Of a stretch of DNA of 24,896 bases, positions 119-17,700 are shown one piece after another. A program made the translations under genes and the position numbers. Under the pieces are notes generated by a model. It searched no databases, had not been told where the DNA came from, and saw only the letters and a program-made list of their open reading frames with translations. This stretch comes from a bacterium (lineage in GTDB: Bacteria > UBA9089 > JASEGY01): positions 1 to 24,896 of the forward strand of contig JASEGY010000009.1 of the NCBI GenBank assembly GCA_030019105.1, given 5' to 3'. Every line of letters begins with the position of its first letter. Position 1 is the stretch's first letter.

Positions 119-1434
119 GATTGGGAATATTTCTCATTGCGGTAATTATCACGGCGATATATATCTTCAAAAGCGCCTTTTTCACCCATACTCATCCGCT
201 GATTCTGGCTCTTCTGGCCCTTCTGGCCGGGGAAGTTGGCGCCATAAAAATTGCGGGGCAATCGGGCAAGATACTGTATGCCGACCTGGTTCTCTTCCTT
301 TTCTTAGTATCTATATTGATAAGATACATCAGCTCAAAGAAATCCATTATCCCCCGAACTTCTCTGGATATCCCTATTATGGTCTTTATCTATATCAACA
401 TCTTCTCGGTTTATAATTCCATCGATTTCATGACTTCTATCTCTGAGCTAAAAGAGTTAGTGGTGGGATTTGTCGTTTTCTGGTTAGTAGTCTGGGCGGT
501 AAGGGAAGAGGGAGACATCAAGCGGCTCTTTTTGAGCCTGGCGACCTTCGGTTTTTTAATGGCTGTATACTTATTTTTGGTTACTATCTTACAAGGTTCA
601 GGCTTTTTAGATGCTGTCGCTGCGAGGAAGATAGACCTCCCCTGGGGAAGGTCAAATTATCTGGCCACTTTCTGGGACTTGATCATCCCTGTTACGATTG
701 GGTTATTTATCAATGCCCGTCGTTTTATCTCTCGAATAAGCTTCGGGACAGCTATTTTCATTATGCTGGCCGGCCTGCTCATCACCCTCTCCAAGGGGGG
801 AATAGGCTCCCTTATCCTTGCTCTCATTCTGGGGATTAGCATTTTTTTCAGAAGTCAGAAGAAAGTAATCTATTTTATTACTCCTCTCTTGATAGTTATT
901 CTGGCTATCATTTATTATGAACCGCTAAACAGGGCTGTCTATCAGCCTTTTTCTGAGATAATCGGTTACAGATTCAGCAAAGGGGCTATGGATTATTCGG
1001 TAGGTGAGCGGATGAAACTTTACAATATAGGATTTCAGGTCTTTACCGAACATCCTGTCATCGGTTGCGGCATCAACAACTTTGAGGTTATGGTGGGACA
1101 AATATTCGGAATAGAGTTTGTCCCGCACAACATCTTTCTTGGCACAGCCGCAGAGACAGGGACTATTGGTTTGCTTGCTCTGGGATGGCTTTTTGTGGCT
1201 ATCTTTTTGAAGTTCGTTGACTTGATTAGAAATATTGCCGATGAATACTGGCAGGGCATTCTGAAGTGGACATTTATAGGGGTTATGGCCACGTTGATTC
1301 ACGAGCAGGTAGAAACGAACCTTATTGGAAGCCAGTTCAAGATCGTCTTTTGGTTTACCATCGGGATAATTTACGCTATGCCGAGGGTAATACTATTGCG
1401 GAATGCGGATTGCCGATTGCGGATCGCGGAATGA
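100..1434 (+). CDS. O-antigen ligase / polymerase family membrane protein (Wzy_C domain; Wzy, WaaL or PglL-type)
   Basis: A 444-residue polytopic inner-membrane protein with roughly ten or more hydrophobic segments. It shows the signature blocks of the Wzy_C/O-antigen ligase superfamily: GRSNYLATFW before a membrane helix, a TLSKGG segment, the periplasmic-loop block 'R..LYNIGFQVFTEHPVIGCGINNFE', and HNIFLGTAAETGTIGLLAL near residue 342. Members use undecaprenyl-PP-linked glycans as donor, and either polymerise repeat units (Wzy), attach them to lipid A (WaaL), or transfer them to protein (PglL). Sequence alone does not separate these. Because the locus also encodes a Neisseria-like PglC-PglD fusion, an O-oligosaccharyltransferase role is worth considering (inference). 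The ATG at 100 follows AAGGGGTG at good spacing. The last ~12 residues (NADCRLRIAE) are encoded by heptad repeat DNA, so the native C-terminus was probably replaced or extended. Confidence 0.85.
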   Translation: MEAAFLRLGIFLIAVIITAIYIFKSAFFTHTHPLILALLALLAGEVGAIKIAGQSGKILYADLVLFLFLVSILIRYISSKKSIIPRTSLDIPIMVFIYINIFSVYNSIDFMTSISELKELVVGFVVFWLVVWAVREEGDIKRLFLSLATFGFLMAVYLFLVTILQGSGFLDAVAARKIDLPWGRSNYLATFWDLIIPVTIGLFINARRFISRISFGTAIFIMLAGLLITLSKGGIGSLILALILGISIFFRSQKKVIYFITPLLIVILAIIYYEPLNRAVYQPFSEIIGYRFSKGAMDYSVGERMKLYNIGFQVFTEHPVIGCGINNFEVMVGQIFGIEFVPHNIFLGTAAETGTIGLLALGWLFVAIFLKFVDLIRNIADEYWQGILKWTFIGVMATLIHEQVETNLIGSQFKIVFWFTIGIIYAMPRVILLRNADCRLRIAE

Positions 1435-1497
1435 AAAGATTCGCAACCGTTTGCGGATTGCAGAATAGAGAAATAAATCCGAAATGCGAAATACAAA
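1398..1497 (+). repeat. heptad repeat element spanning the ligase stop codon and the intergenic gap
   Basis: Five tandem 7-nt units of the type GCGGAWT lie at 1398-1432 and run into the TGA stop (1432-1434). After a spacer, GCGGATT and GCAGAAT follow at 1453-1466, then three units in the opposite sense (ATCCGAA, ATGCGAA, ATACAAA; 1477-1497). The forward-heptad/spacer/reverse-heptad layout matches the in-frame element at 9083-9165. It supplies the C-terminus of the upstream protein and stops just before the ribosome-binding site of the next gene. Confidence 0.75.
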
Positions 1498-1511
1498 GAA
1501 GGGTATTTTAG

Positions 1512-2087
1512 ATGAGAATAGTAGATAAAATATGCAGCAAGCTGAAAACTAAATTAATATACAGTCTTTTTTTAAAGGAGATTGGGAAACGGTCAATAAT
1601 TTATAAGCCATTAAAATTAACAAATCTACAAAACATAACCATTAAGGAACGGGTTCAGATAAATGAATTTGTCTGGCTTTTCACCTTTAAAGTAACCGAT
1701 AAAGACCCTCAGCTTGTGATCGACAGCGGCGCCAACATCGGGCATTTCAACCACATAGCTTGCATAAATGAAGTCTATATCGGCAAAAATGTCTTGACCG
1801 GAGATAAGGTGTATATATCGGACCACCAACATAGTTATGAGGATATTGCTGTTCCCGTCAATGATCAACCTTTGGTTTCAAAAGGCAAAGTCTATATTGG
1901 AGAACATACCTGGATAGGTGAGAATGTCTCGATTCTTAGTTGCAGGATTGGGAAACATTGTGTTATTGGAGCTAATTCTGTGGTTAATAAGGATATTCCT
2001 GATTATAGTGTGGCCGTGGGAGCCCCGGCTAAGGTCGTAAAAAGATATGATCTTCATTTAAAAAGATGGGTAACTGCTCAGCCATAA
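1512..2087 (+). CDS. left-handed beta-helix acyltransferase (hexapeptide repeat, WbbJ/maltose-galactoside O-acetyltransferase-like)
   Basis: 191 residues. After a ~60-residue N-terminal part, the protein shows [LIV]-G-x4 hexapeptide turns (IDSGANIGHF, VYIGKNVLTGDKVYIS, VYIGEHTWIGENVSIL, CRIGKHCVIGANSVV) and the typical acyltransferase exit 'DIPDYSVAVGAPAKVV'. SDHQHSYED carries the probable catalytic histidine. It probably O-acetylates (or otherwise acylates) a sugar of the surface glycan in the cytoplasm, using acetyl-CoA and working as a trimer. ATG 1512 is preceded by AAGAAGGG. The first ~150 bp are clearly more AT-rich than neighbouring genes. The final codons (VTAQP) fall in TAACTGCTCAGCC, nearly the terminus of the repeat element at 11005-11367, so its C-terminus may be repeat-derived. 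Confidence 0.85.
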   Translation: MRIVDKICSKLKTKLIYSLFLKEIGKRSIIYKPLKLTNLQNITIKERVQINEFVWLFTFKVTDKDPQLVIDSGANIGHFNHIACINEVYIGKNVLTGDKVYISDHQHSYEDIAVPVNDQPLVSKGKVYIGEHTWIGENVSILSCRIGKHCVIGANSVVNKDIPDYSVAVGAPAKVVKRYDLHLKRWVTAQP

Positions 2088-2092
2088 GTTAC

Positions 2093-2529
2093 AAGGGGGG
2101 AAAGTCAATGGATTTATCTATCATAATTGTAAACTACAAAGTAAAAGAGCTGCTCAGGGATTCTTTGCACTCGATTGCAGAGCAGACAAAGGAAATCTCT
2201 TATGAAGTAATTGTAGTGGACAATAATTCCAGCGATGGAAGCCAGGAGATGCTCAAAGGAGAATTCCCGGAAGTAACTTTAATCGCTAATAAGATCAATC
2301 TGGGGTTTGCCGGGGCCAATAACCAGGGGATAGAAGTTAGTCAAGGCAGATATGTCCTTCTGTTAAATCCGGATACCATTGTCCTGGATAGGGCCTTAGA
2401 AAAGCTGGTCAAATATATGGACTATCATCCGGAGGCTGGAATAGTGGGGCCGAAATTACTTAACGCTGACCGAAGTTTACAGTTGTCCTGCGGAAGTGCC
2501 CCCAACCTCTGGAATATGTTCTGCGCCCA
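2093..2529 (+). repeat. first copy of a ~437-bp near-identical duplication (5' half of GT2 gene A)
   Basis: It pairs with 3151-3587 at a constant offset of 1058 nt. The first 245 nt (2093-2337, including the Shine-Dalgarno) are identical. By eye, about 7 substitutions occur in the remaining 192 nt, after which the copies diverge sharply. Confidence 0.95.
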
Positions 2530-3103
2530 TCTCTATCTAAACCGGATATTTCCCAAAACCAGGTTTTTTGACTCATACAAACATGGTTATGGGTGGAATT
2601 ACAATGCTATCAGTGAAGTAGATTGGGTCTCCGGCGCCTGCCTTATGGTCAGACGGGAAGTCATTGAAGATATCAGGCCTTTGGACGAAGGTTTCTTCCT
2701 CGCCTTTGACGAGGGCGACTTTTGCAAGAGGGCAAAGGCTGCCGGCTGCCATATCCATTATTATCCTCAGGTCCGGATCATTCACCTGGTAGGACAGGCC
2801 ACTAAAAAGGTACCCCAGACCAGGATATATAATTATCGGAGCGCCCTGAGGTACTTTCGCAAACATCATTCCTTGCCCGCGGTCTTCCTTTTAAAAGGCA
2901 TCTTTACCCTTTCCCTTACCGTAAAATCAGTGATAAATCTTGTTTTTTTTCTTATCTGTCCCGGGAAGAGGCAAGGTATCCTTTACAATTTAGGCGCTTA
3001 TCAAAGCGCCTTCAAGGAAGTAATAACCTGCGGTAATCGTGATTCGTGTTCGTTATCCGTGTTCGTAAAGGACCGAAAGAAAGGGAAAAACGGATACGGA
3101 TAA
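2108..3103 (+). CDS. glycosyltransferase family 2 (rhamnosyltransferase-like), tandem copy A
   Basis: 331 residues from ATG 2108. That start is preferred over the in-frame ATG at 2066 because it follows GGGGGGAAAGTC, is shared exactly with copy B, and begins with the classic GT-A strand MDLSIIIVNYK. Motifs: VVDNNSSDGS (nucleotide-binding, ~37-46), the LLNPDT metal-site region (~84-89), WVSGACLMVRR, and FDEGDF (acceptor/base region). This matches WbbL-like GT2 enzymes that add a sugar from an NDP donor to a lipid-linked glycan at the inner membrane. A hydrophobic segment near the C-terminus (FTLSLTVKSVINLVFFLI) suggests membrane association. Compared with copy B, the C-terminus is extended by ~17 residues (after VITCGN) encoded by repeat DNA. 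Donor and linkage cannot be predicted. Confidence 0.9.
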   Translation: MDLSIIIVNYKVKELLRDSLHSIAEQTKEISYEVIVVDNNSSDGSQEMLKGEFPEVTLIANKINLGFAGANNQGIEVSQGRYVLLLNPDTIVLDRALEKLVKYMDYHPEAGIVGPKLLNADRSLQLSCGSAPNLWNMFCAHLYLNRIFPKTRFFDSYKHGYGWNYNAISEVDWVSGACLMVRREVIEDIRPLDEGFFLAFDEGDFCKRAKAAGCHIHYYPQVRIIHLVGQATKKVPQTRIYNYRSALRYFRKHHSLPAVFLLKGIFTLSLTVKSVINLVFFLICPGKRQGILYNLGAYQSAFKEVITCGNRDSCSLSVFVKDRKKGKNGYG

Positions 3104-3150
3104 CGGTCACGGGGGACGATTTTGTTTCGAAATCCGCAATCTGCAATTGA
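3035..3150 (+). repeat. degenerate interspersed repeat forming the tail of GT2 copy A and the gap to copy B
   Basis: The segment contains 'CGTGATTCGTGTTCG' type units, a perfect 10-bp inverted repeat CGTTATCCGT (3051-3060) / ACGGATAACG (3096-3105), then heptad-type AATCCGC AATCTGC AATTGAA (3129-3149). The GT2 stop codon (3101-3103) lies inside the right arm. Comparable 'ATTCGTG' and 'ACGGAT' units occur in the gap at 11000-11391. Confidence 0.7.
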
Positions 3151-3587
3151 AAGGGGGGAAAGTCAATGGATTTATCTATCATAATTGTAAACTACAAAGT
3201 AAAAGAGCTGCTCAGGGATTCTTTGCACTCGATTGCAGAGCAGACAAAGGAAATCTCTTATGAAGTAATTGTAGTGGACAATAATTCCAGCGATGGAAGC
3301 CAGGAGATGCTCAAAGGAGAATTCCCGGAAGTAACTTTAATCGCTAATAAGATCAATCTGGGGTTTGCCGGGGCCAATAACCAGGGGATAGAAGTGAGTC
3401 AAGGTAGATATGTCCTTCTGTTAAATCCGGATACCATTGTCCTGGATGGGGCCTTAGAAAAGATGGTCCAATATCTGGACTATCATCCGGAGGCAGGAAT
3501 AGTGGGGCCGAAATTACTTAACGCTGACCGAAGTTTACAGTTGTCCTGCGGAAGTGCCCCCAACCTCTGGAATATGTTCTGCGCCCA
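3151..3587 (+). repeat. second copy of the ~437-bp near-identical duplication (5' half of GT2 gene B)
   Basis: Counterpart of 2093-2529. It starts exactly at the Shine-Dalgarno run of the second GT2 gene. The sharp drop in similarity after 3587 suggests gene conversion or recombination limited to the 5' half. Confidence 0.95.
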
Positions 3588-4101
3588 ATTCCATCTAAAC
3601 GAGATATTTCCCCATCTCAGGTTTTTTGATTCATACCGGTATGGTTATTGGTGGGATTACCATGCTGCCGGTGAAGTGGATTGGGTCTCCGGCGCCTGCC
3701 TGATGGTCCGGCGGAAGGTCATTAAAGATATCGGGCCTCTGGACGATGGTTTCTTCCTCTACTTTGAAGAGGGCGACTTTTGCAAGAGGACAAAGGAGGT
3801 CGGCTGCCAGATCCATTATTGCCCGCAGGCCCGGCTTTTCCACCTGGTTGGCCAGGCGACTAAAAAGGTGCGTCGAACCAGGATAGATAATTATCGGAGC
3901 GCCCTGAGATACTTTCGCAAGCACCACTCCTGGCTACAGGTATTGTTTTTAAAGGGCATCTTTACCCTTTCTCTCACCATAAAATCGGTAGTTAGCTTTA
4001 TTTCCTTTCTTATTTACCCTGAGGAAAGGGGAGACATACTTTACAATTTAGGTGTGTATCGAAGCGCTTTCAGGGAAATGATGGTCTCCGGGGGAAAATG
4101 A
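3166..4101 (+). CDS. glycosyltransferase family 2 (rhamnosyltransferase-like), tandem copy B
   Basis: 311 residues, paralogue of copy A. It has the same N-terminal GT-A core (VVDNNSSDGS, LLNPDT), WVSGACLMVRRKV and FEEGDFCKR, and a similar C-terminal hydrophobic segment. The first ~76 residues are identical to copy A. The acceptor-side half differs at many positions (e.g. FHLNEIFPHLRFFDSYRYGYWWDYHA versus the copy A equivalent), so the two enzymes may add similar sugars to different acceptors (inference). The start has GGGGGG at 3153-3158. The stop overlaps the next gene by ATGA (4098-4101), so translation is probably coupled. Its natural C-terminus (REMMVSGGK) shows what copy A lost or gained. 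Confidence 0.9.
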   Translation: MDLSIIIVNYKVKELLRDSLHSIAEQTKEISYEVIVVDNNSSDGSQEMLKGEFPEVTLIANKINLGFAGANNQGIEVSQGRYVLLLNPDTIVLDGALEKMVQYLDYHPEAGIVGPKLLNADRSLQLSCGSAPNLWNMFCAQFHLNEIFPHLRFFDSYRYGYWWDYHAAGEVDWVSGACLMVRRKVIKDIGPLDDGFFLYFEEGDFCKRTKEVGCQIHYCPQARLFHLVGQATKKVRRTRIDNYRSALRYFRKHHSWLQVLFLKGIFTLSLTIKSVVSFISFLIYPEERGDILYNLGVYRSAFREMMVSGGK

Positions 4102-4616
4102 CTATGATCAGCAAGTTTGCCATGAGACTTTATAAGGGGTTTCTTCAAATAAGATGGCTCCTGAGGCTTTACATGGTCAAATTAAAATTGACCTTAAAGG
4201 GAGTGGAATTCAGGATAGGGAAAGGCAGCTTTTTCCCCTCCAGCGCTTCTCTTGACGGAACGGCCGGCATAGGAAAGATAAGGATTGGGGACAAGGTGTA
4301 TATCGGGCGTTACTCCATCATCCATAGCAAAGAGCTGGTTAGTATCGGCAGTAATTGTCTGATTGCCGACATGGTGACCATCAGGGACAGCGACCATTGT
4401 TTCAGCCAATTGGACAAGCCCATCTGTGAACAGGGGTTTGACATCGCCCCGGTGGTGATTGAAGACAATGTCTGGCTTGCCGCTAAGGTTACTGTAACTA
4501 AAGGAGTCAGGATCGGCCGAAATTCGATCATTGCGGCCAATGCGGTGGTGATCACCGATGTTCCCCCTGACACCATCTTTGGGGGCATCCCGGCCAGAGA
4601 ATTAAGGAGACGATGA
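4098..4616 (+). CDS. left-handed beta-helix acyltransferase (hexapeptide repeat), second in locus
   Basis: 172 residues. Hexapeptide turns run from about residue 55 (IRIGDKVYIGRYSIIH, VSIGSNCLIADMVTI, VVIEDNVWLAAKVTVTKGVRIGRNSIIAANAVV) to the family exit 'DVPPDTIFGGIPARELRRR'. DSDHCF supplies the likely catalytic histidine. The N-terminus has a hydrophobic/basic stretch. A sugar O-acetyltransferase acting in the cytoplasm is most likely; serine acetyltransferase-like proteins are an alternative but are usually longer at the N-terminus. The ATG at 4098 overlaps the GT2 stop, and a second ATG at 4104 is possible. It overlaps the following GT4 gene by 4 nt. Confidence 0.85.
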   Translation: MTMISKFAMRLYKGFLQIRWLLRLYMVKLKLTLKGVEFRIGKGSFFPSSASLDGTAGIGKIRIGDKVYIGRYSIIHSKELVSIGSNCLIADMVTIRDSDHCFSQLDKPICEQGFDIAPVVIEDNVWLAAKVTVTKGVRIGRNSIIAANAVVITDVPPDTIFGGIPARELRRR

Positions 4617-5770
4617 CCATGAAGAAGACGACCATCTTACAACTTATCGGCACCCTGGACTTTGGGGGGGCGCAGAGCCTGTTATTATCACAGCTTAAAA
4701 ATATAGACCGGAATAAATACCGGATCAAGGTCGCTACTATTCTTCGACCAGGGGCTTTGGCCCCTTCTTTTGAGCGGCTTGGCTTTCCGGTAATCAACCT
4801 GGGGATGCATGGCAAGCTTGATCCCCGCATATTTACCAGGCTCTATCACCTGATCAAAAGTGAGCAGGTCGATATCATCCACACCCACACCTTCCCGGCT
4901 GACTTCTTTGGCCGTATGGTGGGCTGGGCAATGAGATACCCAATCATTGTTACGACGGTGCATAATATAGGTAAATTAAGGGCTGGATACAGTCTCAGGA
5001 TCGATCGGGCCCTTTCCGGCGCAAATGATCTGATCATCGCCTGCTCCGAAAAGGTTAAAGAAGTTCTTATCAGTCAGGGAATAAGGGAGGATAAGATTCA
5101 GGTCATCTGTAACGGGGTGGATGTTGAGGAGATTAACTCTCGTTGTCCCGCTTCAATCACAGGCAGGACGCCTGTGCTGCTTTCTAAGGCTTCAATCACA
5201 GGCGGGACGCCTGTGCCACTTTCTGTAGTCGGAGTTGTGGGCAGTCTCCTGCCCATAAAGGGTCATTCATATTTCATCCAGGCAGCCAAAGAGGTCAGCC
5301 GGGAATTGCCAGGGGTCAGATTTGTGATAGTTGGAGACGGCCTCCTTCGGGGCGAGTTGGAGGCATTGACGGAAAAACTCGGATTGAGCCCCAGGGTGAA
5401 CTTTACCGGCTTTCGAGAGGATGTTCTCAATCTTATGGCCGGATTTGACCTCCTTGTCCTGCCCTCTCTGGCTGAGGGGTTTGGAATTGTCCTGGCTGAG
5501 GCTATGGCCCTTTCCAAGCCGGTAGTGGCTTCAAGGGTAGGGGGAATAGAAGAGATTGTGGTAGATGGAGAGACAGGGATATTAGTGCCTCCGGCTCAGC
5601 CGGGTGAACTTTCAAGGGCCATAATTCAGGCGCTCAGAGACGGAAAAAAGGCAAGCGAAATGGGACGTAAAGGATACCAGAGGGTTAAAGCCAGGTTTGA
5701 TATAAAGACGAAGGTAAGAGAATTAGAGGGGGCTTATGAGCGGCTGATGGCAAAGAGGGCGGTTCGATGA
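4613..5770 (+). CDS. glycosyltransferase family 4 (GT-B fold) with an in-frame repeat insertion
   Basis: 385 residues. The N-terminal acceptor domain (LIGTLDFGGAQSLLLSQL, THTFPADFFGR) and C-terminal donor domain (VVGVVGSLLPIKGH; EGFGIVLAEAMALSKPVVAS with the E-x7-E pair near 288-296; GGIEEIVVDGETGILVPP) are complete. It transfers a sugar from an NDP donor to the lipid-linked intermediate with retention. Between CNGVDVEEINS and VVGVVG, residues ~180-204 are encoded by two copies of a 39-bp palindromic repeat (5150-5224) and lie in the interdomain linker. The ATG at 4619 is better spaced from AAGGAG (4604-4609) than ATG 4613, so the true start may be 4619. The gene overlaps or abuts both neighbours. 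Confidence 0.9.
   Translation: MTMKKTTILQLIGTLDFGGAQSLLLSQLKNIDRNKYRIKVATILRPGALAPSFERLGFPVINLGMHGKLDPRIFTRLYHLIKSEQVDIIHTHTFPADFFGRMVGWAMRYPIIVTTVHNIGKLRAGYSLRIDRALSGANDLIIACSEKVKEVLISQGIREDKIQVICNGVDVEEINSRCPASITGRTPVLLSKASITGGTPVPLSVVGVVGSLLPIKGHSYFIQAAKEVSRELPGVRFVIVGDGLLRGELEALTEKLGLSPRVNFTGFREDVLNLMAGFDLLVLPSLAEGFGIVLAEAMALSKPVVASRVGGIEEIVVDGETGILVPPAQPGELSRAIIQALRDGKKASEMGRKGYQRVKARFDIKTKVRELEGAYERLMAKRAVR
5150..5224 (+). repeat. two in-frame copies of a 39-bp-period palindromic repeat inside the GT4 gene
   Basis: Units at 5150-5185 and 5189-5224 both read GCTTCAATCACAGGC-RGGAC-GCCTGTGC..CTTTCT. The core is a perfect 7-bp-arm palindrome CACAGGC/GCCTGTG around GGGAC in unit 2 (AGGAC in unit 1). 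The period is 39 nt = 13 codons (ASITGRTPVLLSK / ASITGGTPVPLS). This looks like an interspersed REP-like sequence captured in coding DNA. Confidence 0.9.
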
Positions 5771-6939
5771 AAAGATTGAAGATAGCTCAAATAGCGACTG
5801 CCAGTATATCTCTCCGTTTCCTTCTCTTGAGGCAGATAAAATATCTAATGGATGAGGGATATGAGGTAAAAGCCGTCTCCTCTGATGGCGGCTATCTTGA
5901 TGAGGTAAGGGAGGCAGGAGTAGAGATAAAAACGATTAATATAGATAGAAAAATAAAACCTCTGGCAGATCTGGTCTCTTTAATAAAACTCATCCGATAT
6001 TTCAAAAAGGAAAGGTTTGATATTGTTCATACCCACACGGCCAAGGCCGGATTCCTGGGACGGCTGGCGGCCCGGATAACCGGGGTGCCGATAATCATTC
6101 ATACTGCCCACGGATTTCCTTTTCAGCCGGGGCTTCCGGGAATGAAAGACCGTTTCTACTTCTGGCTGGAAAAGTTCACGGCCTTGCTCTCTGACAGGAT
6201 ACTCTCCCAAAACAGCGAGGATGTCCAAACAGCTCTCAGGCTTGGATTAGTTAAGCCGGACAAAATTCGGGAGATCGGAAATGGGATTGATCTTGGCCTC
6301 TTTGATCCGGATCGGATAGCCGGACAGATCAATGTGGAGGAAAAACGAAGGGAGTTGTTTGGAGACTCAGGCCGGACTATCTTCCTTACCATTGCTGAGA
6401 TGATCGAACGAAAAGGGCTGGGCTACCTTTTAAAGGCTATTAGCCAGGTAGTAAAAGAGGAGAGGAATTGTGGATTCGTTCTGGTTGGGGACGGTCCTCT
6501 TCGGGCCGGTCTGGAGGCTCAGGCAGAGGAGTTGGGGCTTTGCCATCACGTTCGGTTTCTGGGGTTCAGAACCGATATCCCTTTGCTTTTCTCCTTAGTC
6601 GATGGTTATATTCTCTCCTCCCTTTCCGAGGGTCTGCCCAGGTCAATCATTGAGGCGATGGCTATGACCCGGCCTGTAATTGCCACTGATGTCAAGGGGT
6701 CAAGGGAAATGGTCAAAGACGGAGAGACCGGCTTTCTGGTTCCGGCTCAAGACCCGGCTGCCCTGAGCCGGGCCATCCTGAAGATTATCCGAAATAAAGC
6801 AGAAGCTAAAGCAATGGGTTTGGCCGGACGAGAGAGGGCCAAAAGATTCTACAATGAAACCGATGTTATGGCCCGGTTAAATGGAGAATATCAGGAATTA
6901 CTCCGCCTTAAAGGCCTTTTAAGGAGTATTTTAAAATGA
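5767..6939 (+). CDS. glycosyltransferase family 4 (GT-B fold)
   Basis: 390 residues, intact GT4. The N-terminal domain has RQIKYLMDEGYEVKAVSSDGGY and HTHTAKAGFLGRLAARITGVP. The donor domain has IAEMIERKGLGYLLKAI, LVGDGPLRAGLE, FLGFRTDIPLLFSLVDGYILSSLSEGLPRSIIEAMAMTRPVIATDVKGSREMVKDG, with the E-x7-E motif in EGLPRSIIE. The HTHTAKAG and HTAHGF blocks resemble PglA/WbnK-type enzymes that add HexNAc (for example GalNAc) to undecaprenyl-PP-linked sugars, which would fit an enzyme acting early on a bacillosamine primer, but donor specificity is inference. The start overlaps the upstream stop by ATGA, and its own stop overlaps the next gene by ATGA. Unlike the neighbouring GT4 it has no repeat insertion. 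Confidence 0.9.
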   Translation: MKRLKIAQIATASISLRFLLLRQIKYLMDEGYEVKAVSSDGGYLDEVREAGVEIKTINIDRKIKPLADLVSLIKLIRYFKKERFDIVHTHTAKAGFLGRLAARITGVPIIIHTAHGFPFQPGLPGMKDRFYFWLEKFTALLSDRILSQNSEDVQTALRLGLVKPDKIREIGNGIDLGLFDPDRIAGQINVEEKRRELFGDSGRTIFLTIAEMIERKGLGYLLKAISQVVKEERNCGFVLVGDGPLRAGLEAQAEELGLCHHVRFLGFRTDIPLLFSLVDGYILSSLSEGLPRSIIEAMAMTRPVIATDVKGSREMVKDGETGFLVPAQDPAALSRAILKIIRNKAEAKAMGLAGRERAKRFYNETDVMARLNGEYQELLRLKGLLRSILK

Positions 6940-9710
6940 ATAACCGGAAAGAAACTAAAACAAACTTCGGAGTAAGAGAGGATACCCGAGACCTGAGGCA
7001 GTGCTGGGAAGTGCTCCTTTACTATAAATGGTCCATCGGCTTAGTGGTGCTCATCTTCTTCCTGGTCACCCTGATTATCAGCCTCAGGATGACGCCTCTC
7101 TATACTTCTTCCACCAGGCTCCTTCAGGTAGAGTCCAAAGGGCAATTGACCTTTGGGAATAATAATGTGCCGGAGTTTACTCCAGGATATGAGATTGAGA
7201 CAATGGCCCAACTGCCCAAGACCCGGCCGGTGTTAGAAACTGTAATTAACAAACTTAACCTTAAAATAAAGCCCGAAGGATTGGCCGGCATGGTTACTAT
7301 TGGCTGGAGCAAAGAGACAAAGATTATAACTATTTGGGCTAAATATCCTGATCCAATTATGGCCCAAAAGATTGCCGGCACCCTGGCTGAAGCTGCTATC
7401 CGGGAGGAGCTCGGACTTCATAAACTGGAAGCTGAGGCAAAACATGGATATTTAATAAATCAGTTGGCCAGAGTGGAGGAAAACCTGGACAGGACTGAGG
7501 AAAAGATGAAGGAGTTTGAAGAGGAAGAGCGGGTCATCGATATTGATAAACGAAAGGGGCCTACCCAGTTTTCTGAACAGGCCCTCAGCTTGGTGCGGGC
7601 AGAGGAACACTTAAACCTTCTGGAAGAGGAATCTCAGGCAGAGCTTGTGGCCGCTGACGCCAGGGTAAAAAAGTTTGAAGAAGAATTAGGGTTGAAAGAA
7701 ATAAACTATGAGGTGTTTCAAGAAGGAGAAGAAAAGGAGCCTGGCCCAGTTCAGGAGGCCCTTCTTATTGAATATATTAAGCAGAAGACCGAGATTTCGG
7801 CTCAGAAAGCCAAAGTAGAGAATTTTAGAGGTGGTAAAAAGCGGATTTGGACCAGAATGAAGGAGGTCCCGGAAAAACAACTTTCTCTGGCCCGCTTAGA
7901 GAGAAAAAGACAGATTAATGAGCAGTACTTTCTCTCCCTGAAGGAGAAGTTGGAAGAGACCAGATTGGGCATGGAATCAGAGGTGGGCAATCTGAGGGTG
8001 ATTGAACCGCCCGAGATGCCGGCTAAACCGAACTGGCCCAATATACCAATAAATATCCTCATTTCCCTCGTCATTGGGGTAATGTCTGGTGTTGGGCTGG
8101 CCTTCCTGCGAGATTACCTCGACAGTACGATCAAAAGCCTGGAGGCAATAGAGGAACATTTCACCCTTCCTTCGCTGGGCCATATCCCTTTCCTGGCTAA
8201 AGATAAAAGATTGATCGATATCCAGGGATCACACCCTGGAATCACTGAGATTTATAGCCCCATCTCCCACGAACTCAACAGGATTAAAGGCAGCCCAGCC
8301 GTCCCGGCTGTGAATGAGAAAGAAAGGGGCAAAAACTCCTTCCTGATTACCAGCACTGTGGCCGGGGAAGGTAAGTCAACCACGGCCTTGAATCTGGCTT
8401 TAGCTTCAAGTATGGAGGGCAATAAGGTCATTCTTCTGGAGGCTGATATGAGAAGCCCCTCCGGCCTGACTATGACAATGGGCCTCCCGGTAAGATACGG
8501 CCTGCAGGACTACTTAATGGACAAAGCCTCTCTGGAAGAAGTCTTAATAGAGACCAAACAGCCTAATCTAAAACTCCTGCCGGCTCGAAAAAATATGAGG
8601 GATGATAATTGGGTTGATCTCCTCAACTCTACCCGGATGAAAGAACTTATTGAGCGGCTCAAGCAGGAGGCGGATATTCTTTATATTGACTCTCCGGCCA
8701 TTCTGCCGGTATTTAACATCTCCTCTTTAGTAAAGGAGATAGATGGGGTTATCTTCATCGTTAAAGCCCATGGCCCCAAAGTAAAGGCGGTCAATTTTGC
8801 CTTAGAGCGGCTGAGTAAGATAAACGCCCCTCTCATGGGGACATTGCTGACTAAGGTCAGGGTGTCAAAAAAGGATATACATTACTACTATTCCTACTGT
8901 CACGCTCCTGTCCGGCAGCGGTTCCGGATGCCCTTTAATTTATTGAAGAAAAATATTCCCCTGGGCCTTCCTTCGGTCAGGAGTATTCTGATCTGCCTGG
9001 CCATCCTTTTTCTATCTATCTTTTACCTGGCCAATCCCGGAAATTTAGGTTTGGAAGAAGGGGCAGAAGCGAAGGAAACAGTGGATTTCGGAATGCGGAA
9101 TGCGGAATGCGGAATGCGGATTTATCCCGATCCGAAATCCGAAATCCGAAATCCGAAATCCGAAGATGTCAGGAAGTCAGAGATTCAGAATCAGACTCTG
9201 ACCATGGGAGTTGCCTATGCTATTCAGATAGGGAGCGAGACCTCCCTGGAGGCAGCCGGCTATTTACAAAACCGGGCCTTTGAGGCCGGCTTCAGTTCCT
9301 ATCAGCAGGCAGAAAGGGTTAGACAGCCTATCTACCGGATTTTTATCGGGAAGTTGTATCCTGCCATGGAGCGGGCTGAAGAAGAAGTAGCTAAGGTCAG
9401 GGCTATGGGATATGAAACCAGGGTTGATACTCAACCCAATCACCATTACATTATCTTCCTGGGGGAATATCCGGCTCGATCTGAGGCCTTGGAACTGGTC
9501 AGAAGACTTGAGGCAGATAGTATCTCTCCACGTCTCATCTCTGACTATAAAGAGATAGATATTTACCGGGTCATGGTGGCTTGCCCTGGCGGGCCTGAAG
9601 AGGTCAGGAGAAAAAGAGAAGAGTTGGAAGAGGCTGGTTTCAGTACCTTTATTCGGTGCTTGAGCAGCAGCAGCAGCGCCGCTGTGACACAAAAGGCAGG
9701 TAAAATCTGA
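6936..9710 (+). CDS. Wzz-type chain-length regulator fused to BY-kinase, with an extra membrane helix and two SPOR-like repeats
   Basis: 924 residues. Order: TM1 (~33-50), Wzz/periplasmic domain with long coiled coil (~60-365), TM2 (~372-390) preceded by the proline-rich PPEMPAKPNWPN, cytoplasmic tyrosine kinase with Walker A VAGEGKST (~475-482), Walker A' VILLEADMRSP (~498-508) and Walker B ILYIDSP (~581-587), then a tyrosine cluster YYYSY (650-654) suited to autophosphorylation. Bacterial tyrosine kinases of this kind set polysaccharide chain length through phosphorylation cycles. Unusually the chain continues: a third hydrophobic helix (~682-699), a repeat-encoded segment (~718-743), and two SPOR-like units (~759-831 and ~836-907, e.g. 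YAIQIGSETSLEAAGYL, YRIFIGKLYPAMERAEEEV), which by topology would be periplasmic. Canonical BY-kinases stop at the Tyr tail. The gene ends in an AGC run (SSSSS). Start and stop overlap both neighbours. Confidence 0.88.
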   Translation: MNNRKETKTNFGVREDTRDLRQCWEVLLYYKWSIGLVVLIFFLVTLIISLRMTPLYTSSTRLLQVESKGQLTFGNNNVPEFTPGYEIETMAQLPKTRPVLETVINKLNLKIKPEGLAGMVTIGWSKETKIITIWAKYPDPIMAQKIAGTLAEAAIREELGLHKLEAEAKHGYLINQLARVEENLDRTEEKMKEFEEEERVIDIDKRKGPTQFSEQALSLVRAEEHLNLLEEESQAELVAADARVKKFEEELGLKEINYEVFQEGEEKEPGPVQEALLIEYIKQKTEISAQKAKVENFRGGKKRIWTRMKEVPEKQLSLARLERKRQINEQYFLSLKEKLEETRLGMESEVGNLRVIEPPEMPAKPNWPNIPINILISLVIGVMSGVGLAFLRDYLDSTIKSLEAIEEHFTLPSLGHIPFLAKDKRLIDIQGSHPGITEIYSPISHELNRIKGSPAVPAVNEKERGKNSFLITSTVAGEGKSTTALNLALASSMEGNKVILLEADMRSPSGLTMTMGLPVRYGLQDYLMDKASLEEVLIETKQPNLKLLPARKNMRDDNWVDLLNSTRMKELIERLKQEADILYIDSPAILPVFNISSLVKEIDGVIFIVKAHGPKVKAVNFALERLSKINAPLMGTLLTKVRVSKKDIHYYYSYCHAPVRQRFRMPFNLLKKNIPLGLPSVRSILICLAILFLSIFYLANPGNLGLEEGAEAKETVDFGMRNAECGMRIYPDPKSEIRNPKSEDVRKSEIQNQTLTMGVAYAIQIGSETSLEAAGYLQNRAFEAGFSSYQQAERVRQPIYRIFIGKLYPAMERAEEEVAKVRAMGYETRVDTQPNHHYIIFLGEYPARSEALELVRRLEADSISPRLISDYKEIDIYRVMVACPGGPEEVRRKREELEEAGFSTFIRCLSSSSSAAVTQKAGKI
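8296..8310 (+). repeat. short palindrome with GGGAC core in the Wzz-kinase linker
   Basis: CAGCC-GTCCC-GGCTG has 5-bp arms around the complement of GGGAC, the same arm-core-arm design as the repeat in the GT4 gene at 5150-5224. It encodes SPAVPAV between the Wzz part and the kinase. Short enough to be chance. Confidence 0.35.
9083..9165 (+). repeat. in-frame heptad repeat element inside the BY-kinase gene
   Basis: Four tandem GGAATGC units (9090-9117), a short spacer, then five tandem TCCGAAA-type units (9131-9165). The left edge GGATTTCGGA (9083-9092) is a perfect inverted copy of TCCGAAATCC (9131-9140), so the element can form a hairpin. It is translated as MRNAECG- and SEIRNPK-type 7-residue periods, between the third membrane helix and the SPOR-like repeats. 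Confidence 0.92.
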
Positions 9711-10999
9711 TGGTAACGCTAAAGAGATTAATAGATATTATAATTTCCGTGACCGGTCTGGCGCTTACTGCCCCTTTGTTGTTGACGGCAGCAATTCTAA
9801 TCAAGCTCGATTCTAAGGGTCCGGTCTTTTTCTGCCAGGAGCGGATCGGGCAGGGCGGCCGTCCCTTTAAGATCATCAAATTTCGAACCATGACGGCTGA
9901 GGCAGCTAAAGAGAAGGTAAGTTGCGAGGTCTGCCCGGGTGATTCCAGGTTAACCAGGTCAGGTAAATTACTCCGGGCAACCGATATCGATGAAATCCCC
10001 CAATTGATCAATGTCTTGAAGGGGGAAATGAGTTTGGTCGGCCCCAGGCCCACCATTAAAGAACAGGTTGATAATTATACCCCGAATCAGAGGAGACGCC
10101 TGGAAGTAAAGCCGGGTATTACCGGTTGGGCTCAGGTTAATGGGAGGATCCATATACCCTGGGAAGAGAGGATAAAGTTGGACCTGGAATATATTGATCG
10201 GCAATCACTTCTGTTCGATCTGAAGATTCTGATTAAAACAATATGGGTTGTGTTGGAGGGGGTCACTGCTCGGGAGCATTGTTCATCCTTTGGACCGGTT
10301 TCACAGTTCACACAGTCCACAAAGTCCACACAGTCCATAGAAGGCAGCTTGCAGGCTAATATGGATTCGGTTATTATTTATGGCGCCAGCGGACATGCCA
10401 GGGTTATTATTGACATTCTGGAAAAGAGTGGTCCATACCGGATAGCAGGTCTTCTGGATGATGATAATACCCTGTGGGGCCGGCAGATATATGGATACGA
10501 GGTTCTTGGGGGCGGGGATATGCTCGTAAAGTTGAGTCTGGCCGGGGTAAAAAAAGGTATTGTCGCGGTGGGAGAGAATAAAATAAGATGCCAATTGGCC
10601 CGAAAGATGGTTGAGTTGAGATTTGATTTGATCAAGGCGATCCATCCTTCGGCCCAGATTGCGAGGGGGGTGATGATAAAGGCCGGCTCGGCGATTATGG
10701 CCGGGGTAGTTATCAATGCCGATTCCATACTGGGAGAAAATGTGATTATAAACACAGCGGCTACTATTGACCACGATAACCGGATAGCCGATGGTGTTCA
10801 CATCTGTCCTGGCGCCCACCTGGCTGGCGGGGTTAGTGTTGGCCGCTTTAGCCGGATTGGAATCGGGGCAGCCGTAATCCAGGGAATAATGATTGGTGAG
10901 GATGTGATTATCGGAGCAAATGCGGCTGTGATCAGGAATATACCCGATTATGCGGTGGCCGTGGGGGTCCCCGCCCGGGTAATTAAGATTAAAAAATGA
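9710..10999 (+). CDS. bifunctional phosphoglycosyltransferase-acetyltransferase (PglC-PglD fusion, Neisseria PglB-like)
   Basis: 429 residues. Residues 1-~187 are a polyprenyl-phosphate monotopic phosphoglycosyltransferase: N-terminal re-entrant hydrophobic helix (IISVTGLALTAPLLLTAAIL), KFRTM, catalytic Asp-Glu dyad D94-E95 in DIDEIPQL, GPRP, and KPGITGWAQVNGR. Residues ~218-429 are a PglD/NeuD-type acyltransferase: VIIYGASGHARVIIDIL, then a left-handed beta-helix with probable base H355 in TIDHDN and the exit IPDYAVAVGVPARVI. Together they would N-acetylate UDP-4-amino-sugar to UDP-diNAc-bacillosamine and load the phosphosugar on undecaprenyl phosphate. The two halves are joined by ~28 residues, of which QFTQSTKSTQSI come from a 9-bp repeat. 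ATG 9710 overlaps the kinase stop by one base. An internal ATG at 10361 could in principle start a separate PglD but has only a weak upstream ribosome site. Confidence 0.9.
   Translation: MVTLKRLIDIIISVTGLALTAPLLLTAAILIKLDSKGPVFFCQERIGQGGRPFKIIKFRTMTAEAAKEKVSCEVCPGDSRLTRSGKLLRATDIDEIPQLINVLKGEMSLVGPRPTIKEQVDNYTPNQRRRLEVKPGITGWAQVNGRIHIPWEERIKLDLEYIDRQSLLFDLKILIKTIWVVLEGVTAREHCSSFGPVSQFTQSTKSTQSIEGSLQANMDSVIIYGASGHARVIIDILEKSGPYRIAGLLDDDNTLWGRQIYGYEVLGGGDMLVKLSLAGVKKGIVAVGENKIRCQLARKMVELRFDLIKAIHPSAQIARGVMIKAGSAIMAGVVINADSILGENVIINTAATIDHDNRIADGVHICPGAHLAGGVSVGRFSRIGIGAAVIQGIMIGEDVIIGANAAVIRNIPDYAVAVGVPARVIKIKK
10303..10338 (+). repeat. 9-bp tandem repeat x4 forming the PglC-PglD linker
   Basis: Four units: ACAGTTCAC, ACAGTCCAC, AAAGTCCAC, ACAGTCCAT. 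The 9-bp length preserves frame and encodes a Gln/Thr/Ser-rich linker exactly between the two enzyme domains. Confidence 0.9.
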
Positions 11000-11004
11000 G
11001 GTAT

Positions 11005-11367
11005 CTACTCAGCCACGAATTAACACAAATTGACACGAATACACACGAATAAAAGCAGCAATCCACCAATTTAGCCGATGAGTCAAATAGAACACGGATT
11101 GTACGGATGAGACGGATACACACGGATAATAAAAACAATAGCCTTCATAAAAACTAAAGGTAGTGACGCTATCCACACTCAGGAGTTAATCCTTTAGGAT
11201 TTCATTATGAAAGGCTAAAGCCTAAAATCCGAAATATAGCTTGCTTTAGCTTTCGTGTGCCTCATTGAATAAAAATCAGTGGAAATCCGTCGAATCCGTG
11301 TCATCAGTGTGCTATAAAAATTCGTGATAATTCGTGTTCATTCGTGGTTAATAAAGAGGCTGAGTAG
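11005..11367. repeat. intergenic repeat element with 10-bp terminal inverted repeats (fills the 10,999-11,392 gap)
   Basis: CTACTCAGCC at 11005-11014 is matched by GGCTGAGTAG at 11358-11367. Inside, 'CACGAAT'-type units (11014-11050) and 'ACGGAT'-type units (~11093-11130) on the left are mirrored by 'ATTCGTG' and 'AATCCGT' units on the right (~11283-11348), so the whole ~360 bp is folded as a large imperfect inverted repeat. The centre holds AGGCTAAAGCCT (11212-11223), the core also found at 14546-14557. No open frame of note is present. It could be a non-autonomous (MITE-like) element or a nested set of REP sequences. Confidence 0.6.
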
Positions 11368-11391
11368 TTACAAAATGAGGAGGGAAAAAAA

Positions 11392-12582
11392 ATGATTAAA
11401 CCTGCTGTTCTTGGAGGAAGACCAATGTTTGAAGAGGAGATGCATATTACCAGGCCGACTCTTCCCAGACTGGATATCGACCTATTCAAACACCTTGACA
11501 GGATGTTTTCTATGGGGGCCATTACCAACGGTCAATATGTCCGGGAGTTAGAAGAGAAGGTGGCTGATTATCTGGGGGTAAGGCATGCCATAGCCGTCTC
11601 TTGCTGCACAAGCGGCTTGATGTTGGTCATCAAGGCCCTCGGGCTTTTCGGAGAGGTAATCCTGCCCAGTTTTACCTTTTCGGCTACGGCTCATGCCCTG
11701 ATGTGGAATAGTATTACGCCGGTCTTTGTTGATTGTGATCCGGAGGGATATAACCTCAATCCTGACCTTATTGAAGCCTCAATTACCGACCGGACTTCAG
11801 GGATAATGGCTGTTTACACCTTTGGTAATCCACCCCGGATAAAGGCCCTCGAAGAAATAGCCGCCAGAAACAACCTGAAATTGATCTTTGATGCAGCCCA
11901 CGGTTTCGGTTCGGAATATCAAGCCAAAAGGCCGGGGAGCTTTGGTCATGCGGAGGTCTTTTCCATGAGTCCAACTAAACTTCTGGTGGCCGGCGAGGGG
12001 GGCATCGTGACTACCAACGACGATGAATTGGCCAGAAAGATACAGATCGGAAGAAACTACGGTAACCCCGGGGATTATGACTGTGAATTTGCCGGCCTCA
12101 ATGCCCGAATGGAAGAGTTCAATGCCTACCTGGCCCTGGCCAGTTTGCCAAACTTAGAGGGATTTGTTCAGAGGCGGAACGATCTGGTTGCCTCCTACAA
12201 GAAAGAATTGGCCGACATGCCCGGTCTCTCTTTCCAAAGAATCGACCCAGCCGACCGGAACTCCTATAAAGATTTTTCCATCCTGATCGAGCCTTTAACC
12301 TTCGGCCTCAACCGGAACCAACTGGCCCAGGCTCTAAAAGCCGAAAAGATAGATACTAAAAAGTACTTCTATCCCCCGGTTCACCGACAAAAGGCTTATG
12401 CTTTTCTCTACGCCGGATACGAGGAGAGTTTGCCGGTAACCGGGTATGTGACCGAGAATATCCTTTGTCTGCCCCTTTATTCTCATATGGAGGAAAAGGA
12501 AGTCCTCAAGATATGCTCGGCCATAAAGCGGATATACGACTTCCGCGAAGATATTGCCAGGATAGGTGATGAAAATGCTTAG
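11392..12582 (+). CDS. DegT/DnrJ/EryC1/StrS family PLP-dependent sugar aminotransferase (probable PglE role)
   Basis: 396 residues, full length for the family. The N-terminal part has the substrate/PLP elements GAITNGQYVRELEEKVADYLGVRHAIAVSCCTSGL, the aspartate of the IFDAAHGFGS block that pairs with the PLP ring nitrogen, and FSMSPTKLLVAGEGG, in which K196 is the predicted Schiff-base lysine. These enzymes transaminate 4-keto-6-deoxy nucleotide sugars using glutamate. Placed between the PglC-PglD fusion and a PglF-like dehydratase, the likely product is UDP-4-amino-4,6-dideoxy-HexNAc (inference). Acting on another keto-sugar cannot be excluded, and the SPTKLLVAGEGG lysine block differs from the ATK-type block of some PglE-like enzymes. 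ATG 11392 follows GAGGAGGG (11377-11384). The stop overlaps the next gene by ~14 nt. Confidence 0.88.
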   Translation: MIKPAVLGGRPMFEEEMHITRPTLPRLDIDLFKHLDRMFSMGAITNGQYVRELEEKVADYLGVRHAIAVSCCTSGLMLVIKALGLFGEVILPSFTFSATAHALMWNSITPVFVDCDPEGYNLNPDLIEASITDRTSGIMAVYTFGNPPRIKALEEIAARNNLKLIFDAAHGFGSEYQAKRPGSFGHAEVFSMSPTKLLVAGEGGIVTTNDDELARKIQIGRNYGNPGDYDCEFAGLNARMEEFNAYLALASLPNLEGFVQRRNDLVASYKKELADMPGLSFQRIDPADRNSYKDFSILIEPLTFGLNRNQLAQALKAEKIDTKKYFYPPVHRQKAYAFLYAGYEESLPVTGYVTENILCLPLYSHMEEKEVLKICSAIKRIYDFREDIARIGDENA

Positions 12583-14476: not shown

Positions 14477-14607
14477 TACAGCTCGGCGGAAGTTCTTCCC
14501 CGGTTTCAACCTGCTTGCCGGGCAGCCGCAACCTTTAGGTTGCGCAGGCTAAAGCCTGCGACTACCAGGTGCAGAAAACCAGGGAGGTATTTCCGCCGAG
14601 CTGTACT
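14475..14607. repeat. inverted-repeat element with perfect 17-bp ends and two internal REP hairpins
   Basis: AGTACAGCTCGGCGGAA (14475-14491) is exactly complementary to TTCCGCCGAGCTGTACT (14591-14607). Inside are two adjacent hairpins, GCAACC-TTTA-GGTTGC (14528-14543) and GCAGGC-TAAA-GCCTGC (14544-14559), followed by GACTAC. The left end overlaps the dehydratase stop codon. It may act as transcription terminator for the glycan operon and/or be a MITE-like insertion. No open frame. Confidence 0.8.
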
Positions 14608-14707
14608 GGTTTTAAGTAATTACCAGAACGATACATTTTTATATTTTATAAAGTATATATTTTAATATATGTAAAATTTTGCTATATTTCTGTAATAATT
14701 CTCGATA

Positions 14708-14736
14708 TTGACTATTCTTTATTTATATGGTATAAT
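14708..14736 (+). promoter_or_regulatory. strong sigma70-type promoter of the giant surface-protein gene
   Basis: TTGACT (14708-14713), 17-nt spacer, TATAAT (14731-14736) in a very AT-rich stretch (~14,620-14,785). Predicted transcript start is ~14,743, giving a ~43-nt leader before AAAGGGAGG (14772-14780) and ATG 14786. The gene is therefore probably transcribed separately from the glycan operon. Confidence 0.8.
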
Positions 14737-14785
14737 AATAACTGGAAGACTTGAATTTCTATTAATTTTTCAAAGGGAGGGTGTT

Positions 14786-17700
14786 ATGAATAGGAACCTT
14801 AAGCAGTCTTTGGCTGCTATCTTCTTTATCTCCATGCTGGTGGTAACCAACCTCGTCCAGGCGGATACCTACACGGTAACTAACCTGAATGATTCCGGTA
14901 ATGGCTCTTTACGCTGGGTTTTGGACCAGGCCAAAAACCATTCAGGCCTGGATACGATCAAGTTTGATCTTTCTCTGCAGGGCGGAGTCATCTACGTCAC
15001 CGGCGGGGAACTGTGGGTAGAGGGCGACAAGACGACCATTGATGCCTCCGGCCTCTGGACAGGCAATATGCCTGGTATTACCATCGATGGGAGCCGGGGC
15101 GGCAACTGGGAAGGCCTGACTATCAGCGCTGATCGCTGTGCTGTCTATGGCTTGTATATCACAAGTTTTGAAGATGATGGCTTGCAGTTCACATCATCTG
15201 CTTCAGACAACATCATTGGCGGACCAGGTCATCAGGCCAATGTTTTTGGTAACTGCCGGGGCGAAGGTATTGAAATATACGGTGGTTCTAACACTGTTTA
15301 TGGTAATTACATCGGACTTACACCTGATGGCGATCCTATCGGTAATGGGGGCTGTAATGGCCTGGGGGGCCTGGTCTTTGGCCATAATGGAGCCAAAAAT
15401 AACCGTCTGGAAAACAATGTTATTGCTTACAATTATGGTATGGGAACCAAGAGCTGGAAGTCTAAAGGTTACGGCAATCTCATCACCCGCAACTCTTTTT
15501 ATCAGAATAAAGCCGAATACAGGGACTGTGATTACACCCATTATGGTTTAGGGATTGATCACAATAATGATGGAGATGGCCTTACCCTCAATGATGGGCA
15601 AAAAAACTCCAGCCAATTTAATAGGGGGATGGACTTCCCTGTCTTTACTCTCGTTAGTTTAAATGGGACTACCCTCCATTTAGAAGGTTACGTCGGTACT
15701 GCCGGCAATTCTACCTTTGCTAACTCGACGGTCGAAGTCTTTATCGCTGATCCTGACCCCAGTGGGTACGGAGAAGGCAAGACTTATCTGGGCAGTTTCA
15801 CTACCGGCTCCACCGGCGATTTTAAGGTCGATCTGACCGTAAGCGGCCTGTCAGCAAACGATCAGATCACAACCACGGCCACGGATCCTTCCAACAACAC
15901 CTCGGAATTTTCGAAGATATTCATACCAATGCTCACTTGCACTCTTTCATCTGAGGCCGGATCGGATAAGACCATTGACTACGGTTACTCAACTACTATC
16001 GGCGGCTCACCCGTTGCTTCGGCCGGAACTCCGCCTTACACCTATTCCTGGACACCCGCCAGCGGTCTTGATGATCCGGCGGCGGCTAATCCCATTGCTT
16101 CGCCTGATACTACCACCATCTATACTGTGACCGTCACCGATGCCCAGGGTTGTCAGGGCACCGACAGTCTCACTATTACCGTTAATCCTTCGGGAACCAC
16201 CCTTATTGATGGTTTCAATGTAACTTACGATGGACGAAACTACGATACCGAGAACAACCGGACGACCTTTACTTACACCGTGTCCGGAACCGGCCTTGAT
16301 CCTGCCTTGAGCCACTTTACCATCGGGCTCCCTTCTTGTGATCCTGCGGTGAAAGTTGTCGTTTATAGTCCTGATAATTCTATTGAAATTGGGAAAGAGC
16401 CCACCACCGGCTTATTTGGCATTAAGTGGGACATTGGCCTTGAACCGGACCAGTCCCGAACCTATTCCTTTACCCTGGAAGGGAAATATGGTGAGGAAAC
16501 TATTCAGGTAGCCGTTAAAGCAGGCAAAGAAGCCGAGATTGGAACTATCACCGGTCTGGCTTGCCCTCTTAATCCTCCTCCTCCCAGCCTACCAACTTGT
16601 TCCTTTGACTTGCCTAATACTGTAGAGGCAGGGTCCAGCATCTCCATAGATGCCACAGTCAATGAAGGAATGCCGCCTTACCATTACTCCTGGAATGATG
16701 ATTGCGGTCAGAATTTCAGTTCCTTTACCGTTGAAGACCCTGATTGGACAGCGCCCACCCGGGCCGAGCCGGCCTGGCGGGCCGAGCCGGCCTGGCGGGC
16801 CGGCACCTGCGCCTTGACCTTGCAGGTGACCGATGCCGCCGGTTATCAGAGCAGATGCCAGGGAAGCGTGGAGATTATTCCCGCTACACCTTTCTGTCCC
16901 TCCGATATGGCTGGGGCTGGACCTGACCGACAGATATTATCCGGCGAGTCAATCCAAATAGGCGGTTCACCTACCGCTTTGGAAGGAACTCCACCTTACA
17001 CCTATTTATGGACGCCAGGCACTGGTCTTAATAACCCGGCAGCGGCCAATCCGCAGGCCTCACCTGCTGCGACCACGACTTATACGGTTATGGTCACCGA
17101 TGCCAATAATTGTCATGATAGCGATCAGGTAACAGTTAATGTCTTCCAATGCGGCTTCCTTACCGTCGAGGCCGGAGATGACCAGGTCTTTTGCGCCCGG
17201 ACAGAAGGGCCGACTACCGTGGTGCTTAGTGGGTGCGCTTCATCGGATGAAAGCGGGGCGGATATTCTGAAATATGCCTGGAGCACGGGTGAGACTACCT
17301 GCCGCGCCTTTCATACCTTCCCTGAGCCGGGTGACTATCCGGTCACTCTAACCGTAACCAATGAGTGGGGCTGCACTGCCTCGGATACAGTCAATATCCT
17401 GATTACCCGTTCAGCCACCCCTGGAGGGCACTTGATTAATCTTAGTATATTGAGCCCGAATGAGTCAGTCGATCTCTGCCAGGAGGCTGCCTTTAGTCTC
17501 ACGGCTGAGAGCAAGATCGAAGATACCACTACCTCTATTTGGATCGAGGCCGTCTTGCCGCCCTATTTTCGTTACATGCCGGGGACAACCCGAATTACTT
17601 TGCCTGAAGGCGGCCTGTTTCAGGATCCCTGGTTTGACCCCATCGATGAACGGCATTTAGTCTGGAACCTAAAGGACGAACCCCTGATCAAGATGTTGAC

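Follow-up and report, generated by a model that had tools for sequence, protein, structure and literature searches.

Small dispersed repeats in described systems

Repeat DNA lying in frame within conserved protein genes is already known from Rickettsia, and heptanucleotide arrays (heptamers) within open reading frames (ORFs) are known from the Beggiatoaceae (PMC4679880, section 15). Here we describe very short dispersed repeats that belong to several families, foremost a GC-rich element of 18 nt (the 18-mer), in a 24,896-nt stretch of bacterial DNA (the window; GenBank assembly GCA_030019105.1, contig JASEGY010000009.1, GTDB lineage UBA9089; JASEGY01) and in the genome around it. The window corresponds to contig C1053 of G000, a draft genome of 4.34 Mb in 1053 contigs that is 95% complete. 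The sole genome of the same genus found for comparison, G001, is distant and also a draft.

In PMC2229807 and PMC10969869, Rickettsia palindromic elements (RPEs) are described as stem-loops of 105-146 bp that are tolerated in frame in conserved protein genes. The 18-mer is likewise dispersed repeat DNA tolerated in frame in genes of that kind, but its unit has only 18 nt, comes one to three times in tandem, folds like its own shuffles and is read in six frames; the length of RPEs, their long stem-loop and their terminal inverted repeats are not found in it. The palindromic amphipathic repeat coding elements (PARCELs), described in PMC2996958, resemble the present repeats as palindromic coding repeats of patchy distribution, but encode one conserved 25-residue motif, whereas the peptide here varies with the frame. 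Repetitive extragenic palindromic (REP) sequences and REPINs, associated with REP-associated tyrosine transposases (RAYTs), offer a further likeness, being short palindromic repeats in tens to hundreds of copies (PMC3116915). REPs have an extragenic location in the neighbourhood of a RAYT, whereas the 18-mer is mostly in ORFs and no copy lies by the one Y1_Tnp gene of G000. The small dispersed repeats (SDRs) of Nostoc are reportedly (Elhai et al. 2008) 21-27 nt long and often embedded in heptamer arrays. In length and setting, only a 22-nt palindrome treated below, itself embedded in heptamer arrays, is similar, while the 18-mer differs in being mostly intragenic. SDRs of Nostoc are also named in PMC3116915.

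Heptanucleotides were found in earlier work to be the most abundant class in most bacterial genomes, and a polymerase contact length has been proposed as the cause (PMC4679880). The known heptanucleotide repeats, such as the short tandemly repeated repetitive (STRR), TAACTGA and GGGAATC types, are like those described here in having period 7 and in being mostly intergenic, with some overlapping gene ends or linkers; in PMC4679880 and PMC4692102 they form one or few families, as against about 35 unit families, of other sequences, per genome sampled here. A literature search (titles and the starts of abstracts, mostly without subscription papers) did not turn up any element of 18 nt reported inside genes, and literal 14-16 nt repeat strings did not occur in the full text searched.

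An 18-nt element within conserved genes

The repeat at 16760-16802 of the window is one copy of a dispersed GC-rich element, (GGGCCGAGCCGGCCTGGC)n with n = 1-3. Tandem arrays in the window were located with Tandem Repeats Finder (TRF) and their frames by translation.

16760..16802, forward strand: 18-nt GC-rich element, 2.4 copies (TRF); reads RAEPAW RAEPAW RA in a giant surface-type protein (14708/14834-23695).

An original prediction, made from the window alone, held that its repeats are spread through the genome, and whole-genome counts, controlled by reading each pattern backwards, bear this out. In G000 the 18-mer occurs 258 times (up to 2 mismatches; control 0), the CACAGGC palindrome of a 39-nt unit 18 times (up to 2 mismatches; control 0), a pair pattern of a 9-nt unit 72 times (up to 1 mismatch; control 2), and three units of the heptamers ATGCGGA and AATCCGC 19 and 153 times (controls 0 and 0). 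The 19-nt core of the 18-mer, at up to one mismatch, has 220 copies in G000 and 4 in G001; in the other 384 genomes there are 12 copies in 11 genomes, exactly as many as the pattern read backwards gives (12 in 11). Among the 386 genomes searched, the 18-mer is restricted to the genus.

We studied 21 loci: 11 from two samples, the one in the window, and nine in eight short stretches of exact matches picked blind to context. The G000 sample comprises 80 contigs chosen blind to repeats (449,572 bp including 20,997 N; contigs C410-C810 lie outside it), and that of G001 comprises 40 stretches (685,788 bp). Twenty of the 21 loci are in ORFs, with L161 intergenic, and all 20 host ORFs have a Pfam domain somewhere. 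Hosts include proteins of the UDP-GlcNAc pyrophosphorylase type, porphobilinogen deaminase (hemC), UbiD, MutS2, a GXGXG/amidotransferase protein, a class I tRNA synthetase, GrpE, ETF-alpha, radical SAM, CarD/TRCF-type, TPR and surface proteins. In-frame placement within conserved protein genes, as in RPEs, is thus found for the 18-mer, and all six reading frames are used (3, 7, 1, 2, 5 and 2 times in the 20 ORF loci, translations read by hand). In an unsupervised search of 14-mers it also comes first of all repeats lying inside genes in the G000 sample.

Genes were called with a purpose-written hexamer-score caller, which overlooked at least one ORF, of 363 aa, with a good coding score, a DUF11 domain and two 18-mers; intergenic counts may therefore run somewhat high for every family. 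The caller placed 8 of the 11 sample loci in genes, and the two in the missed ORF bring this to 10. By comparison, 14 of 103 heptamer arrays in the G000 sample are in genes, against 7 of 10 or 9 of 10 18-mer loci of G000 (P 2e-4 and 1e-6). Unlike the heptamers, the 18-mer has a gene share that does not differ from the coding fraction, and so it does not avoid genes; it is the only family without gene avoidance. An actual preference for genes is hinted at over all 21 loci only (P 0.013). As a separate observation, the DUF11 protein at L160:2515-3603 contains two separate single 18-mers in opposite orientation.

The lengths of the host proteins point to insertion of whole units. HemC, UbiD and UDP-GlcNAc pyrophosphorylase, which have two units each and therefore 36 nt, each exceed their best solved relative by 12 residues, and ETF-alpha, with two exact units beside degenerate ones, exceeds its own by 24; the excess is one of whole units in four of six testable genes. 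At 18 of 21 loci the start of the 18-mer falls in phases 0-2, and its end lies, for most loci, in phases 0-3 or where a contig stops, so that both ends are nearly fixed. At L207 the contig ends within the array, and only the upstream side is visible.

On the best reading of these analyses, the elements would work like RPEs, although far shorter, being tolerated in genes if they are stop-free and a multiple of three in length. Small dispersed repeats would be copied to new sites, where selection would filter them for frame and stops. The 18-mer would insert as whole units with nearly fixed ends, one to three in tandem; since its unit is six codons long and stop-free in all frames, an insertion keeps the frame and could be tolerated inside genes. 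Its copies were presumably placed at their present sites recently, perhaps by an enzyme acting in trans or by a repair or template-switch process. It is probable that the very small dispersed repeats of the genome fall into several families, and that among these the 18-mer is tolerated in genes near the coding fraction. We hold only tentatively, and with more doubt than belief, that the 18-nt unit is mobile and suited to residence in genes, yields near-neutral peptides, inserts as whole units into housekeeping genes genome-wide and has recently expanded in one genus.

Several observations weigh against this picture. Of the 11 sample loci the gene caller by itself assigns 8 to genes, a further two having been added once the overlooked ORF was spotted, and neither 10 of 11 nor 8 of 11 is above the coding fraction (P 0.31 and 1.0). 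The one unit of MutS2 goes with an excess of 2 residues where 6 are expected, and the three units of a radical-SAM protein with an excess of 9 over a remote relative where 18 are expected; in each case the loop is loosely aligned. In stability the 18-mer hairpin does not surpass shuffled sequences (z -0.71 with a single unit, -1.46 with two). No filled and empty strain pair was found, there being one genome per species, and no mover was found; a search for hemC in G001 gave no match. A phage carrier was considered and rejected for the 18-mer doublet and the 22-nt palindrome, neither of which has an exact match in viral contigs.

If the mobile-element reading is true, few known elements with such an intragenic life style would be as short as the 18-nt unit. 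Its more than 200 copies, mostly intragenic, amount to a natural experiment that probes where in a protein a foreign hexapeptide, in any of six versions, can be tolerated, and through it a comparison of strains can directly test how repeats spread that are too short to encode anything. RAEPAW, QAGSAR, NPKSEIR and RIADCGL segments in metagenome proteins can be repeat DNA and not protein families.

Period-7 arrays are depleted in genes

Exact arrays of at least 10 matched steps were counted and compared with a Markov copy of each sample. The G000 sample has 119 arrays at period 7, in 35 unit families (Markov copy 1), and 17 at period 8, 24 at 9, 8 at 10 and 3 at 11; the excess of 7-nt units over neighbouring periods by which heptanucleotide repeats are recognised is thus present. 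G001 has 188 period-7 arrays, also in 35 families (Markov copy 0). Such arrays occur in 5 of 12 other genomes of the phylum (13 stretches, 11-20 kb) and in one of 7 stretches from other phyla. Three units of AATCCGC occur in 16 of 386 genomes, 153 times in G000, 30 times in G001 and one to eight times in 14 genomes other than these two. The same AATCCGC x3 array is present in 46 viral-contig stretches (L213-L258).

With the window included, the 104 array clusters of G000 comprise 15 gene-internal, 9 at 3' ends, 2 at 5' ends and 78 intergenic ones, whereas random placement gives 73.5% gene-internal; for the 147 clusters of G001 the figures are 5, 6, 1 and 135 (random, 71.9%). Heptamers are therefore strongly excluded from genes, being depleted about five-fold in G000 and about twenty-fold in G001. 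Survival of in-frame, stop-free insertions alone predicts 32-48% gene-internal, and the observed shares are lower, which implies that the depletion exceeds frame loss. Gene-internal examples include 12 extra residues ahead of the Pyr_redox_2 domain at L083, two arrays in an MqnA gene and an array in a ComEC-type protein. On this basis, period-7 arrays would be mainly intergenic and would persist in genes only if stop-free and in frame, often in tails, linkers and variable segments. Slippage-like growth, known from the literature, would be the simplest step in their formation.

Both strands are open in 17 of the 20 gene-internal arrays of G000 and in all 7 of G001, although this is partly so by construction, because a stop would end the gene. 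Among unit families, 24 of 35 in G001 are open on both strands, a count matched by 1 of 500 letter-shuffles; in G000 the count is 17 of 35, matched by 48 of 500, a weak excess. We therefore reject the notion that all heptamers are open in six frames.

Repeats of the window and their host genes

Besides the 18-mer, the following features of the window were found.

1395..1434, forward strand: degenerate ATTGCGG heptamer array (1395-1430) forming the last codons, RNADCRLRIAE*, of an O-antigen ligase-like gene, 100-1434 (TRF, translation).
3035..3103, forward strand: 3' tail made of repeat DNA in the first GT2 gene, 2066-3103 (TRF; 13-nt array at 3037-3066).
3166..4101, forward strand: second GT2 paralogue, without a repeat tail, an apparently empty site (translation, alignment to the first copy).
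5150..5224, forward strand: 39-nt unit, 1.9 copies, with the 7-bp palindrome CACAGGC-GCCTGTG, inside a GT4 gene, 4613-5770 (TRF).
9089..9164, forward strand: two heptamer arrays, (CGGAATG)4.6 at 9089-9120 and (ATCCGAA)5 at 9130-9164, in a BY-kinase gene, 6936-9710 (TRF).
10302..10337, forward strand: four 9-nt units of the CACAGTCCA type in the linker of a PglC-PglD gene, 9710-10999 (TRF).
11014..11346, no strand assigned: intergenic composite of CACGAATT- and CACGGATT-type repeats (TRF, sequence reading).

TRF and translation agree with the original prediction that frames run through these arrays or end in them, and translation confirmed that no frame of the ATGCGGA and TCCGAAA arrays, on either strand, is closed by a stop. 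The same is true of ATTGCGG, the 18-mer and the 9-mer; the 39-mer is not open in this way, and it folds better than shuffles (z -3.65). A 'PKD loop' at 16760 was not established: Pfam finds no PKD domain and no other family at the site, its matches in the giant protein lying at residues 375-450 and 793-855. The O-antigen ligase-like protein has a Wzy_C match at residues 218-361.

The view that these segments are extra to the proteins was upheld by relatives lacking them. In the GT4 protein the interval with the repeat spans 55 aa, against mostly 44-46 aa in 119 homologues, so that about 25 repeat residues seem to replace about 15. The tandem GT2 genes at 2066-4101 are 88.7% identical over 920 bp and look like a recent tandem duplication; the first ends in about 50 nt of repeat DNA which the second lacks, apparently a filled site beside an empty one. 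Solved relatives of other genes lack the segments as well.

A window repeatedly capturing repeats in frame had also been proposed. Gene-internal repeats are indeed present, but the window is not special: it has four where the rate in the sample predicts 1.27 (Poisson P 0.04), and the idea of a special repeat-capturing locus was rejected.

One genome-wide process might seed coding-tolerant repeats and make linkers, tails and gene fusions, as was first supposed. All gene-internal repeats seen keep the frame, and among the heptamer families of G001 units with both strands open are favoured (24 of 35), an excess that is clear only in that genome. We nonetheless judge such a process unlikely. The families differ in length, GC content and gene preference, and behave in opposite ways toward genes; the heptamers are depleted there, beyond what in-frame survival predicts. 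The fusions also occur without repeats. Gene 9710-10999 has Bac_transf at residues 5-182 and PglD_N at 221-299, both domains are present in 93 of 119 other matches listed, the linker is freely variable among homologues, and none of the displayed linkers has the repeat peptide. In the BY-kinase (AAA_31 at 476-610, SPOR at 811-864) the heptamer array occupies residues 717-744, between the kinase/membrane and SPOR parts, and the tail of one BY-kinase-SPOR protein (P0257) is free of heptamer peptides. Repeats as the cause of either fusion were thus rejected, in the kinase-SPOR case on one counter-example.

A 22-nt palindrome set in heptamer arrays

An unsupervised 14-mer search in G001 brought up a 22-nt palindrome, CACCCACTTCGTGGGTACCCGG, with 25 copies in G000, 61 in G001 and none in the other 17 genomes of the phylum. 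It sits in phase with its surroundings: when it is cut out of the 16 loci found in the two genomes at up to 3 mismatches, the flanks at 13 of them continue one another with period 7 (at least 13 matches in 21), as happens at 0.5% of random places. The flanking heptamers differ from locus to locus. The core of the palindrome was also seen in three genomes of other phyla (5, 2 and 3 copies; L259-L268), with different flanks and no heptamers, which may reflect horizontal spread, convergence or a binning error.

This palindrome and that of the 39-mer recall REP/REPIN-type elements mobilised in trans by a RAYT (Y1 transposase), and G000 does have one Y1_Tnp gene. Yet the 18-mer, the palindrome and the 39-mer core are all absent near that gene (a 2,142-bp locus; best match 8 mismatches in 19); the draft of G001 gives no Y1_Tnp match but has 61 palindromes and four 18-mers; and G003, G013 and G018 have 3, 6 and 5 Y1_Tnp matches and no 18-mer. 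Mobilisation by a RAYT is, given this pattern, conceivable but unsupported, and we consider it quite improbable.

Very unlikely, in our estimation, is the proposal that the inserts are selected protein parts, useful as linkers or loops, and not merely tolerated repeat DNA. Many do lie at linkers or termini, as in PglC-PglD, between the domains of ETF-alpha and of the L083 protein, and on the N-terminal side of GrpE. The same 18-nt DNA, however, yields six different peptides in functionally unrelated genes, and HemC, UbiD and UDP-GlcNAc pyrophosphorylase bear it within the catalytic-domain match. An assembly or binning artefact of the fragmented draft is scarcely credible, since many contigs have copies in conserved genes whose frame stays intact and G001 shows the same dominance of period 7, even though the assembly has 1053 contigs and some arrays, for instance L013 and L207, are at contig ends.

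Intergenic repeat motifs

Motifs related to the composite at 11014-11346 are nearly all intergenic in the samples of both genomes. A AGGCTAAAGCCTAAACTCC repeat occurs at 51 places in the G000 sample (L050-L109, L145-L164) and the window, all intergenic, and at none in the G001 sample. A GTAACNNTTCAGCCAC motif, resembling the end of an inverted repeat, is found at 137 places in 686 kb of G001 samples (L110-L129, L165-L184), 127 of them intergenic, and a related pair of such ends lies in the window, around 11010-11370.

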